Origin: an uncultured Candidatus Saccharibacteria bacterium
GTDB taxonomy: Bacteria; Patescibacteriota; Saccharimonadia; Saccharimonadales; Saccharimonadaceae
NCBI GenBank assembly: GCA_947367795.1
Contig: CANBER010000002.1
Span: 1-64,000, forward strand
DNA length: 64,000 nucleotides
Direction: 5' to 3'
How positions within the stretch are numbered: the first letter of the stretch is position 1; every line of letters begins with the position of its first letter. The position numbers were made by a program, and so were the translations under genes. The notes beneath the pieces were generated by a model. The model made no database searches. It was not told where the DNA came from and was given only the letters and a program-made list of their open reading frames with translations. Shown piece after piece: positions 20,577 through 26,202 of this stretch.

Positions 20577-21503
20577 ATGAAAAAAATTCTCGCAATCTCT
20601 GGAGGGGTGGACTCGATGGTAATGCTGGATATTTTGACGAAAAAATATAGCCGAGATATATATCATGGGACGAATATGCAAAAAAATGATTATTCGTTTG
20701 GTGATATAATTGTAGCGCATTTTGACCACGGAGTTCGTGATAATTCCCTGGAGGATGCACTTTTTGTCAAGACAATAGCTAAAGACGTATATCATATATG
20801 GTATATTAGCGAAAAGGGCAATCTGGGGCATACCGCATCAGAGGGACAGGCGCGGGAGGCGAGATATGGATTTCTCCGAGCGGCGGCTGAAAAATATGGA
20901 GGCCAGATCTATACGGCACATCATTTGGACGACCTGGTGGAGACTGTAATCATCAATCTGCTGAGAGGTACAGGCTGGAGAGGGTTGGCGTGTTTGGATA
21001 TGCAAGGAGTATATCGACCGTTTTTGGAAGCGATAGATATATATGAGCCGATGGATAAGGCAACGATTCTGGAATATGCGGCCAAACGTGGGCTGAGATT
21101 CCGTGAAGATCAGTCAAATAGTGAAATGAAATATTTTAGAAATCGCGTACGAGAGAGGCTAGGAGAGTATAGTCTAGAATGGGAAGAAAAAATGGAGCTG
21201 TGGAACTTATGGCGCAGACAAAAAGAGCTGAAACACGAAATCGATAGCATAATCCGGCAAATGTTGCCTAGTCGAGGAGAAAAGTGGCAAAGAAAATGGT
21301 TTCGAGAGCTGGACTCAGATGAAGGCGGGAGAAAAGTGGCACTGGAGTTGCTACGAGCGGGGCTTTTGGAAGCGGGCGTGAAGATGACGCGCCCGCAGTT
21401 GGAGGATTTTCGGCAAGCCATTTTAACATCTAGGCCGGGAAAGTATTTTAACCTGCCGAAAGGTCGGATGGTGAGGTTAGAGAAGGATGAATTTATAATT
21501 TAA
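20577..21503 (+). CDS. tilS: tRNA(Ile)-lysidine synthase
   Basis: Converts C34 of tRNA-Ile2 (anticodon CAT) to lysidine so that it reads AUA. The PP-loop SGGVDSM is at residues 8-14, with HFDHGVRDNS and the GHTASEGQAREARYGFL block. At 308 residues it has the N-terminal catalytic domain and only a short C-terminal part. Residues 28-44 are an extra loop encoded by a 48-bp palindrome. A TATAAT box at 20563-20568 is 8 nt before the ATG (leaderless). The CAT-anticodon tRNA at 45534 could be its substrate. Confidence 0.92.
   Translation: MKKILAISGGVDSMVMLDILTKKYSRDIYHGTNMQKNDYSFGDIIVAHFDHGVRDNSLEDALFVKTIAKDVYHIWYISEKGNLGHTASEGQAREARYGFLRAAAEKYGGQIYTAHHLDDLVETVIINLLRGTGWRGLACLDMQGVYRPFLEAIDIYEPMDKATILEYAAKRGLRFREDQSNSEMKYFRNRVRERLGEYSLEWEEKMELWNLWRRQKELKHEIDSIIRQMLPSRGEKWQRKWFRELDSDEGGRKVALELLRAGLLEAGVKMTRPQLEDFRQAILTSRPGKYFNLPKGRMVRLEKDEFII
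20660..20707. repeat. 48-bp palindrome inside tilS
   Basis: ATATCA (20660-20665) and CGAATA (20671-20676) pair with TATTCG (20691-20696) and TGATAT (20702-20707), with equal 5-nt spacers and a 14-nt loop. A similar palindrome lies at 24529-24577 upstream of murA. Confidence 0.65.
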
Positions 21504-23159
21504 TTACTTGGCGAGACAACGCACATTCATCGCGGACGTGCGGTGGTTACCGCCGTTTGGAATAATTGCATCTGCTCCAGTAAGATAGAAGCGGTTGTTA
21601 GTACTTCCAACAGTCCCGGCGGTTGAGGATTCCAACAACCCGTCTCGTCCGTATGAAGATACGGCGGAAGCGGTTGGGTGGATGATACCAGCCCGAACAA
21701 TATAGAGTGGTTTCATGGTGATGTTTTGGTTGTTGCCGTTGCCGAGGTCTTTGGTAGTGTTCTCGGCATAATGTGCTAGGCTGTTTGACTCGGTAAGAGT
21801 GAACTTATAATCGTAAGCAGTGAAAAGACGGTAGAAACTGTCCTCACGGTCATAGATCACGCCGGTCGATGGATTAGCGCCGGTGACGGGCAATTTCCAT
21901 CCTTTGGGGCAAATTGAGCCCGGCGTTTCTCGATCGTTGTATCCATCTGGAGAATCCGGGGAGCTCATGACATCCGGACCACCGTTGCCAGCCATGGCAG
22001 CATTAAACTGGTAGTAATTGCCGACGGTGTAGTGAGCGTCATAGCTGAAATTTTCCCGGTCGATTGCAGTCCAGCTTTCACTGGGGGCGCTGGGGTCGGT
22101 AGAGTAGGCACCGAGGGTTGCTTGCCAGCCGCTGACGTCTTGCAATTCTGAACACTCTGCTAGGCTTTCGCCGAGAGTAACTCGACAGCCGGTTTCGCTA
22201 ATTTTGGCAGGAGAGGCTAATACGTAGTCACCAAAATTCCAGGATAAAGTATAGTTGGTCGAACTTGCGTCGATCTGATCCGTGCCATGATAGGTACTAC
22301 TCGGTACCACCCACTCACTTGTAATGCTGGTGTCGGATGGGGTGAGGGTTTTGCCAGCGACAAGGTCAAAGGCGAGATTTTGAGTCATCCAGCAATTACC
22401 ATCGGCGAGTTTGGCAACCCAATAGGATTTGCCGTCACGAGTGTCGATGAGGCGTTTGGTACTGTCTTCACGAGAGTTAGTGCAAATATCTGGCGTCATG
22501 TCCTGCATGTAGGTGAGCTGGGTGAGGCTGGTGATGGCAATAGGATTGGCAACTGCAGAAAGCACAACCGAGTTACGATAAGCACCGGCAGGAAGAGTAG
22601 TATCGATGGCGGTACCAAAAGTTAAAGTATAAGTATCCGTGGCATTTTCTGCGCCGGTGGTAGTGCTGGCTTCGGGGAGTTTGGTAGAGGTAATGGGGAC
22701 GGCAGAGAAGTCGGTGCCAGGGGTGGAGCCTTTGCTCAGATTATATCCCCAAGTGTTGCTCGTGAAATTATTATTACTCGTGATAGCAGAAATCTGAGCG
22801 GAACTAGTACCGTCGTCGCTGATGAGGGCATTAGTGTTTCCCTGCATGCCAAGGAAGATACCATAACCGGAACTGTTGTTGGTGGAGACTTTGATGGTAC
22901 TACTGACGGTGCTGAGTTTGGTCTCACTGGTGGGATTAATGTCGAGCGCAACGTGATCATCGAGACTAATAGAAATCACGGGATGGGCCCAGACAGAGAA
23001 TTCTTGGGATGCACGTGAAGTATGCTCCTCGGCGTTAGCGGTACTAGTGATGCTGGGGAAGATGGTTAGAAGGCCGATGAGACCGAGCAAGCCGATACTT
23101 CCCCATCCTATGGTGCGCAGGATGTGAGTTTGATGGTTGATAATGTGAGTTTTTGTCAC
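21504..23159 (-). CDS. Secreted FISUMP-domain surface protein
   Basis: Exported protein of 551 residues. The GTG at 23159 is chosen because GGAGG lies 8 nt upstream; an in-frame TTG at 23174 precedes that site. A signal peptide follows (hydrophobic IGLLGLIGLLTIF, cleavage near NAEE). Residues about 40-190 are a Thr/Ser-rich beta domain. The C-terminal 350 residues are a Fibrobacter-type major paralogous (FISUMP) domain: LIDTRDGKSYWVAKLADG, CWMTQNL, CPKGWKLP and the closing NVRCLAK. FISUMP domains are related to C-type-lectin/FGE folds and tend to be multi-copy in CPR bacteria. Preceded by about 340 nt of conserved structured leader. Likely role: surface display or binding. Confidence 0.85.
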   Translation of the reverse strand: MTKTHIINHQTHILRTIGWGSIGLLGLIGLLTIFPSITSTANAEEHTSRASQEFSVWAHPVISISLDDHVALDINPTSETKLSTVSSTIKVSTNNSSGYGIFLGMQGNTNALISDDGTSSAQISAITSNNNFTSNTWGYNLSKGSTPGTDFSAVPITSTKLPEASTTTGAENATDTYTLTFGTAIDTTLPAGAYRNSVVLSAVANPIAITSLTQLTYMQDMTPDICTNSREDSTKRLIDTRDGKSYWVAKLADGNCWMTQNLAFDLVAGKTLTPSDTSITSEWVVPSSTYHGTDQIDASSTNYTLSWNFGDYVLASPAKISETGCRVTLGESLAECSELQDVSGWQATLGAYSTDPSAPSESWTAIDRENFSYDAHYTVGNYYQFNAAMAGNGGPDVMSSPDSPDGYNDRETPGSICPKGWKLPVTGANPSTGVIYDREDSFYRLFTAYDYKFTLTESNSLAHYAENTTKDLGNGNNQNITMKPLYIVRAGIIHPTASAVSSYGRDGLLESSTAGTVGSTNNRFYLTGADAIIPNGGNHRTSAMNVRCLAK

Positions 23160-23505
23160 CTCTTTTACCTCCAAAAGTGGTTAGGACGTCAAAAAGTAAG
23201 CAGGCGCGTACAGTTTGACGAGTTATTACTTTCCACCTTGGGTGTCGCTAGGCTTACAAATGGCTGATCTATCTCCAAACGATAAGGTCATGTTTGGTCA
23301 GAAAAGGAACTATCATGCCAAAGTGCTTATGCAAAAAGCGACACCGCAAGGTGTCTACTCCATTCGCAACCTATACCCGACACATGTTCGAGAAAGCTAC
23401 TTATGCGGTGCCGCTTAAAGCATCTCCAACATGCAGATTAGGGTATAGGTATTGATGGCATAAATTACTACCAAAAACTGGTCGCGATATAAAGTAGACA
23501 ATTTC
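23160..23505 (-). ncRNA. Structured RNA or leader, copy 2 (upstream of FISUMP gene)
   Basis: Promoter TTGTCA (23529-23534), 17 nt, TACAAT (23506-23511), start near 23499. GTCTAC at the 5' end pairs with GTAGAC (+ strand 23494-23499 with 23353-23358); ACCTATACCC pairs with GGGTATAGGT; GCATGTT with AACATG; the apical AAGCGG..CCGC stem follows. A hairpin GACACC-TTGC-GGTGTC plus GCUUUUUG (23332-23355) could end a 168-nt RNA. Downstream, AGCGACACCCAAGGTG can pair back to the same hairpin strand, so termination and read-through into the surface gene may compete. Confidence 0.65.
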
Positions 23506-24474: not shown

Positions 24475-24528
24475 AGATTTTGAGTTGTGAATACACGCAG
24501 AAAAGGACTGATTTACTGTACAAGAGAT

Positions 24529-24577
24529 ATATCATGGGGCGAATAATGAAAAATTATGAATATTCACATGGTGATAT
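24529..24577. repeat. 49-bp palindrome in the murA promoter, sibling of the tilS palindrome
   Basis: ATATCA...TGATAT outer arms (24529-24534, 24572-24577) and GAATA/TATTC inner arms (24541-24545, 24561-24565), in the same order and spacing as in tilS. About three quarters of positions match the tilS copy. It ends 8 nt before the TAGAAT box (24586-24591) that precedes the murA ATG by 6 nt. Confidence 0.65.
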
Positions 24578-24597
24578 ATTTGTGGTAGAATAAGGAC

Positions 24598-26202
24598 ATG
24601 TCAAAAAGATCACAAAATCCAAGTTATCAAGCGTCAATTGGGCGGGTGATTGAGAAGCTCAGAGTAGATAAAGGCTGGACTCAAGCTCAGCTTGCGGAAG
24701 CAATTGGGAGCAGTCAATCGGCGATTCACCGGATTGAAAAAGGGCGCCAAAACATTTCTCTTGAGTTGATTAAGAAAATATCAAAGGCACTAGGAAGCCA
24801 AATTCTCTCTGTTAATGATACAGTAGCGCAGAGCTATCGGATTCATGGCGGCAAAGAGCTGCACGGCGAGGCGACAATCAATACCAGCAAAAATGCCGCG
24901 GTAGCTTTACTGTGTGCGGCGCTGCTAAATAATGGAACGACAACTCTAAAACATCTGGCACGCATTGAAGAAGTATTCAGAATTATTGAAGTTCTAGAGT
25001 CGATGGGAGTCAAGTGCCGCTGGATAAATGAATTTCGTGATTTGGAGATTATATCACCAGATGAATTAAAAATCGAAAATATTAACGTCGAGGCGGCGCG
25101 TAAGACACGTTCGATTTTGATGTTAATGGGACCCTTGCTACATAGATTTAGGAAGTTTCGTTTGCCATATGCGGGTGGTTGCACACTTGGCACAAGGACG
25201 ATCGAGCCACATTTAAGGGCGCTTTCGGCGTTTGGACTCAAAGTTGATGCGGCAAATTGTAGCGGGTTTTATGAAGCAACGGTAGAAAATGAGAAGAGTC
25301 GGAAAGCTAAATTTAAAGCAATGCCGTATTTTGATCAAGTCGGAACGCCCTATCCTCCAAAAAGGATTGTGTTAATTGAGCGCGGAGATACGGTGACAGA
25401 AAATGTTTTGATGGCGGCAGCCTTATATCCGGGAGAGACAACGATTGTGGGCGCGTCTTCAAATTATATGGTGCAGGATTTATGTTTTTTCTTGGAGAAA
25501 ATGGGTGTACGGGTAAAGGGGATAGGCTCAACGACGCTGCGGGTGTATGGGAAATCCGAGATCAACATGGAAGTAGAATATGCGCCGGCAGAAGATCCGA
25601 TCGAGACGATGTCATTTATTGCGGTAGCATTGGTTACGAAATCTAATTTGACTCTACGACGGGCACCAATTGAATTTCTCGAAATTGAGTTGGAAATATT
25701 GAAGAGCATGGGAGCAAGGATTGAACAGTCGCCCGAATATTATAGTACGAATGGCCGAACGCGATTAGTAGATCTGAAAATTTTAGAATCAGAGCTAGTG
25801 GCACCGACAGATAAAATCGCACCAATGCCATTCCCAGGCTTAAATATTGATAATCTTCCCTTCTTTTCGGTAATAGCGGCATCGGCAAAGGGGCGCACTT
25901 TGATTCACGATTGGGTGTTTGAGAACCGAGCAGTCTATGTGACATATCTAGAGAATTTAAATGCAAAAGTAGAACTGCTTGATGCGCACCGGGTGTATGT
26001 CGAGGGTCCAACAAATTGGAGAGCGGCGGAATTGGTCGCGCCACCAGCGCTGAGGCCAGCTGTAGTTGTATTAATTGCGATGCTGGCAGCCCCAGGAACT
26101 TCAATTCTGAGGAATATTTATTCGATTAACCGGGGATATCAGGACTTTGCTGAGCGTCTGAATAGCCTAGGGGCAGACATTCAGCCACTGAACGGGATCT
26201 AG
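24598..26202 (+). CDS. murA: XRE helix-turn-helix fused to UDP-GlcNAc enolpyruvyl transferase
   Basis: A 534-residue fusion. Residues about 12-70 are an XRE/Cro-type helix-turn-helix (TQAQLAEAIGSSQSAIHRIEKG). Residues about 82-534 are a MurA/EPSP-synthase fold enzyme that transfers enolpyruvate from PEP to UDP-GlcNAc, the first committed peptidoglycan step. Catalytic hallmarks are kept: the SKNAAVAL lysine-asparagine pair, the reactive Cys in GGCTLGTR near residue 194 and the ENVLMAA block. Normal MurA is about 420-430 residues and has no DNA-binding domain. The message is leaderless or nearly so (TAGAAT 6 nt before the ATG). Autoregulation through the palindrome upstream is an attractive inference. 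Confidence 0.9.
   Translation: MSKRSQNPSYQASIGRVIEKLRVDKGWTQAQLAEAIGSSQSAIHRIEKGRQNISLELIKKISKALGSQILSVNDTVAQSYRIHGGKELHGEATINTSKNAAVALLCAALLNNGTTTLKHLARIEEVFRIIEVLESMGVKCRWINEFRDLEIISPDELKIENINVEAARKTRSILMLMGPLLHRFRKFRLPYAGGCTLGTRTIEPHLRALSAFGLKVDAANCSGFYEATVENEKSRKAKFKAMPYFDQVGTPYPPKRIVLIERGDTVTENVLMAAALYPGETTIVGASSNYMVQDLCFFLEKMGVRVKGIGSTTLRVYGKSEINMEVEYAPAEDPIETMSFIAVALVTKSNLTLRRAPIEFLEIELEILKSMGARIEQSPEYYSTNGRTRLVDLKILESELVAPTDKIAPMPFPGLNIDNLPFFSVIAASAKGRTLIHDWVFENRAVYVTYLENLNAKVELLDAHRVYVEGPTNWRAAELVAPPALRPAVVVLIAMLAAPGTSILRNIYSINRGYQDFAERLNSLGADIQPLNGI

Follow-up and report, generated by a model that had tools for sequence, protein, structure and literature searches.

Operator-like sites inside tilS and at the murA promoter of a Saccharibacterium, and XRE-MurA as their putative binder

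Results

The window carries two palindromes built from an 18-bp motif

The window (the whole stretch of 64,000 nucleotides analysed here, from a Saccharibacterium) contains tilS and an XRE-murA gene, whose product is a MurA enzyme fused to a helix-turn-helix (HTH). The features of this region are given below.

20577..21503, plus strand: tilS, tRNA(Ile)-lysidine synthetase of the PP-loop family, which carries the intragenic site pair; Pfam ATP_bind_3, E 4e-37
20659..20676, minus strand: operator-like site TATTCGTCCCATGATATA, left of the tilS pair; exact match to the genus motif
20691..20708, plus strand: operator-like site TATTCGTTTGGTGATATA, right of the tilS pair; position kept in several relatives
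24528..24545, minus strand: operator-like site TATTCGCCCCATGATATA, upstream member of the murA promoter pair; motif match
24561..24578, plus strand: operator-like site TATTCACATGGTGATATA, promoter-proximal member of the murA pair; overlaps the putative -35
24586..24591, plus strand: putative -10 box of murA, TAGAAT, read from the sequence; 17-bp spacer to TTCACA at 24563-24568
24598..26202, plus strand: XRE-MurA, helix-turn-helix fused to UDP-GlcNAc enolpyruvyl transferase, the proposed binder; Pfam HTH_3 E 1.3e-15, EPSP_synthase E 5.6e-43
24649..24798, plus strand: HTH_3 domain of XRE-MurA; 62.1 bits, over the Pfam cut-off
25050..25067, minus strand: operator-like site AATTCATCTGGTGATATA, intragenic in murA; 1 mismatch, genus-wide codon constraint

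We observed that the stretches at 20659-20708 (inside tilS) and 24528-24578 (at the murA promoter) are palindromes, in each of which an 18-bp motif, TATTCRYNNNRTGATATA, occurs twice in inverted orientation. The left arm (ATATATCATGGGRCGAATA) is exact at 20658-20676 and at 24527-24545 (two matches, as against 0.05 expected from dinucleotide shuffles), and the right arm (TATTCRYWTGGTGATATA) is exact at 20691-20708 and at 24561-24578. A single gap suffices to align the two copies along about 60 bp, and the inverted motifs are spaced 32 bp apart in the tilS pair and 33 bp apart in the murA pair. The earlier, sequence-only reading of this DNA had described a 48-bp palindrome common to the tilS coding sequence and the murA promoter, and the exact arm matches at both loci bear this out. 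As an element, the palindrome stood only in part: both copies are real, but the comparison of sequences indicates that the conserved unit is the single 18-bp motif, and that the palindrome is a composite of two such motifs. A repeat search of the two short palindrome regions returned no repeats, because the palindrome arms are imperfect. We also found a further copy of the motif in the window, within murA (25050-25067), that the sequence-only reading had not listed.

Between tilS and a galU-like gene lies an ORF on the minus strand (21504-23174). A Pfam search at E 0.001 gave no match for it, and its similarity to the FISUMP domain was weak and below the cut-off.

The 18-bp site recurs across the genus and marks the murA promoter

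The 18-bp site was present in 171 of 174 same-genus genomes, mostly as a few copies per genome, as compared to about four matches of a reversed-pattern control summed over all 174. An exact site was found upstream of murA in 76/79 same-genus loci (Candidatus Nanosyncoccus alces is among the relatives whose loci were compared). This site runs into a TATAAT-like -10 box in 74 of the 76, and a -35-like hexamer lies directly before it in 48. In the window species, where TAGAAT follows TTCACA after 17 bp, the right-hand motif therefore overlaps the putative -35 of murA. A second site was seen 32-33 bp further upstream of murA in the window and its near relatives.

XRE-MurA and the site occur together across the order and the phylum

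Within one ORF, XRE-MurA combines an enzyme with a DNA-binding domain (EPSP_synthase and HTH_3), as a trigger enzyme does; the protein also matched NCBIfam PRK09369.1 above the cut-off. Its sequence aligns with Listeria MurA at the motifs that surround the Lys-Asn, catalytic Cys, Asp and Arg positions, which have known roles in MurA, indicating that the enzyme part is intact. As with a trigger enzyme, there is a conserved operator-like site at its own promoter. In a genome search that covered HTH_3 among the HTH families, no HTH_3 protein was found besides XRE-MurA. No other EPSP-fold protein was found in the genome either, XRE-MurA being the sole MurA found.

Across the Saccharimonadales, an order with cultured oral TM7 strains among its members, the site takes the form of a near-perfect dyad, TATATCAtnnatGATATA, upstream of the XRE-HTH-fused MurA genes. 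The XRE-MurA N-terminus was matched in 141 of 148 order genomes (in one of these, G237, in the MurA part only), and the HTH-MurA fusion is found in most of the 148. Of the 110 XRE-murA upstream regions examined across the order, 55 had the site, mostly as this dyad, with no more than one mismatch (0.1 expected by shuffling), and allowing two mismatches raised this to 72 (2.45 expected). About one-third of these regions had only weak sites, with at least 3 mismatches, and this counts against the reading of the site as the XRE-MurA operator. Exact symmetric dyads numbered 38 in the 148 genomes, and comparison of coordinates placed 21 of the 38 immediately before XRE-murA. A single symmetric palindrome, ATATCATATATGATAT, resembling those at murA in other genera, occurs in the genome of the window (contig C5, 8499-8514).

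When we examined Patescibacteria outside the order, the dyad (at most one mismatch) was found at 6/6 MurA genes with a TSQS-type HTH. Among 15 MurA genes without a recognisable TSQS-type HTH, which include one from within the order (G237), none had the dyad and none came closer than 3 mismatches. The co-occurrence of site and HTH gave a Fisher p of 9e-5 with the divergent-HTH case counted as dyad-less, a nominal value, as are all the p-values here, which overstates independence since the compared sequences are related. The divergent case is a MurA from outside the order (L461, genome G323), which has no dyad and may use a different operator. A recognition-helix residue (N or H, in SAINRIE or SAIHRIE) did not track the operator variant cleanly; one genus, g47, has TATGC-type sites together with N.

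The sequence-only reading had offered a binding site, with the HTH-MurA as a possible binder, as one of two explanations. The footprint before XRE-murA throughout the order, its co-occurrence with the HTH across Patescibacteria and the finding of a sole HTH_3 protein together strongly support XRE-MurA as the probable binder. We also evaluated whether the site could be bound by some other protein, either as an operator or as a chromosome-organising site, with murA as one target. The many intragenic copies at fixed places recall site-specific nucleoid proteins, and the genome search for competing regulators was confined to the HTH_3 family. However, site presence follows the MurA-HTH fusion phylum-wide and the order-wide conservation of the site is highest at murA itself, making another binder improbable.

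Codon choice at the intragenic sites

Inside coding sequences, the site occupies fixed places across the genus in the genes for a trmH/spoU-type methyltransferase, murD, murE, argS, rlmH, tilS and murA. Codon usage was evaluated at two of them. For trmH, 30 genes were gathered by protein similarity and not by motif. At the first trmH site, Ile was encoded by ATA in 28/30 (23% background) and Ser by TCA or TCG in 22/22 (48% background), and a Ser-to-Ala change at the site leaves the motif intact. The bias was also seen among 80 murA genes at the intragenic site, some 490 bp downstream of the promoter operator: Ile was ATA in 73/76, against a background of 9.5%, and Ser was TCA in 67/67, against 16.6%. 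Judged by these codon choices, the trmH and murA sites show selection on the DNA.

It might be argued that the intragenic copies, being in frame and at orthologous positions, are merely conserved peptides (YSSGDI, ISPDEY) with codons that match by chance. We consider this very improbable, since one peptide recurs in unrelated proteins and the codons are so far off background; the codon bias led us to reject pure protein conservation as the whole story of these sites.

The tilS site and the paired arrangement

The tilS copy is read in frame, as a segment of a variable loop that precedes VAHFDHG. The right-hand site was found at the same tilS position (YSSGDIIVAHFDHG) in five relatives (L041, L043, L044, L318 and L321) and was absent from three (L042, L045 and L046), while in G043 and G013 the tilS site pairs lie within longer loops. 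The proposal of the sequence-only reading that the palindrome encodes an extra TilS loop thus needs to be qualified: the palindrome does code for part of a variable loop, but this is not a conserved protein feature, and the extra loop is most plausibly what a putative operator pair looks like once translated. That reading had also named a TilS loop conserved as protein, and a lack of other genomic copies, as findings that would speak against it; we found the loop not to be conserved and many further copies. We noted that tilS was undetected in 39/60 same-genus genomes, many of them >95% complete, which may reflect loss of the gene or strong divergence.

The other explanation in the sequence-only reading, a family of palindromic insertions, found no support. 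Mobile palindromic elements (RPE-, REP- or MITE-like) inserting into proteins and promoters might be suspected when one palindrome is found in both a coding sequence and a promoter, and when the tilS loop is longer where the pair is present. However, what is conserved is one 18-bp site, found at orthologous positions, as at murA, and the codon bias indicates selection in place. Most relatives carry the single site, and some pairs are direct and not inverted (G104 at murA, G013 in tilS). Dispersed whole copies at non-orthologous places were not what we observed: the whole inverted form occurred in only 3/174 same-genus genomes, as 5 copies, 3 of them at the orthologous murA promoter. Mobile insertion was rejected as extremely improbable.

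An RNA hairpin working in the transcript (as attenuator, terminator or stability element) was also rejected and is hardly credible, for although the tilS copy as RNA folds at -21 kcal/mol, single sites and direct pairs predominate and could not form such a hairpin, and the murA pair, with the putative -10 downstream of it, is not expected to be part of the transcript.

Other genes with the site

Genes with exact sites were tallied from loci fetched from 22 same-genus genomes. Intragenic sites were found in the trmH/spoU-type methyltransferase (19) and argS (9), and promoter sites at murA (18), tsaD (6) and def (2). Exact sites were also counted for murE (9), murD (9), rlmH (7) and a trmA-like methyltransferase (4), with trxB and tilS among the single or double cases. 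Of these genes, murD, murE, rlmH and the methyltransferase were identified by search and the remaining site-bearing genes were named from sequence. We further observed that the site precedes the RNase P RNA gene (rnpB) in three loci and lies within three loci that hold tRNA genes. As exact sites alone were sought, this list is a sample and not the full regulon.

Discussion

These comparisons have led us to conclude that the palindromes are very probably operator pairs for XRE-MurA, which would be an autoregulated enzyme-repressor comparable to BirA or PutA. What the sequences establish is the motif, where it lies, how well it is conserved, that it occurs together with the HTH, and that intragenic sites are under selection as DNA. 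Each 18-bp site would bind one HTH dimer of XRE-MurA, and with a distance of 32-33 bp (three helical turns) between the sites, two dimers would come to lie on one DNA face, an arrangement that the site pair appears to fit rather than a hairpin. Binding to the two sites may be cooperative. As the murA promoter site extends over the -35/-10 region, XRE-MurA bound there should keep RNA polymerase out and so repress its own gene. Simple promoter occlusion does not account for the function of the intragenic sites; the operator inside murA, about 490 bp on, may act as a loop partner or as a roadblock. A further, speculative step, by analogy with BirA and PutA, would be regulation by a ligand of MurA, for example UDP-GlcNAc or PEP.

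BirA, the biotin ligase and repressor, is likewise an essential enzyme fused to an HTH and has a palindromic operator over its target promoter, an arrangement proposed for repression by XRE-MurA. The two differ in the enzyme and in the HTH family. The main target of BirA is the bio operon and not its own gene, whereas XRE-MurA is proposed to act on its own gene, and the ligand control that has been shown for BirA is a guess for XRE-MurA. Operator-like sites inside unrelated genes are a feature of XRE-MurA and not of BirA. PutA, the trigger enzyme of proline catabolism, represses its own gene, as is proposed for XRE-MurA, but it is a catabolic enzyme with a ribbon-helix-helix domain and membrane switching. 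The intragenic murA site resembles a lac-type auxiliary operator in lying within the gene it would regulate, several hundred bp beyond the first operator, though looping at murA is suggested from position alone. Rickettsia palindromic elements also place palindromic DNA in frame within unrelated proteins; the unit in the window, in contrast, is 18 bp long, has been tuned where it stands and shows no sign of being mobile.

A wider reading, to which we give somewhat less than even credence, is that XRE-MurA is a main transcription regulator of these tiny, reduced symbiotic bacteria. It would sense cell-wall precursor status and set growth through promoter operators (murA, tsaD, rnpB and def) and through operators inside cell-wall and translation coding sequences, and unrelated proteins would share YSxGDI or ISxDEY because the DNA must hold the binding site.

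In the open-access literature, to which our search was limited, we found no paper with a title or listed abstract on HTH-MurA, a Saccharibacteria regulon or CPR operators. A single purified protein and an 18-bp piece of DNA would suffice for a direct test. How genes are regulated in Patescibacteria has hardly been explored, and the present result names a candidate regulator, a putative operator and a candidate regulon conserved across the order. Through this candidate regulator, the first committed step of peptidoglycan synthesis would be linked to transcription, and the intragenic sites provide a case of putative DNA-binding sites shaping the amino-acid sequence of unrelated proteins.
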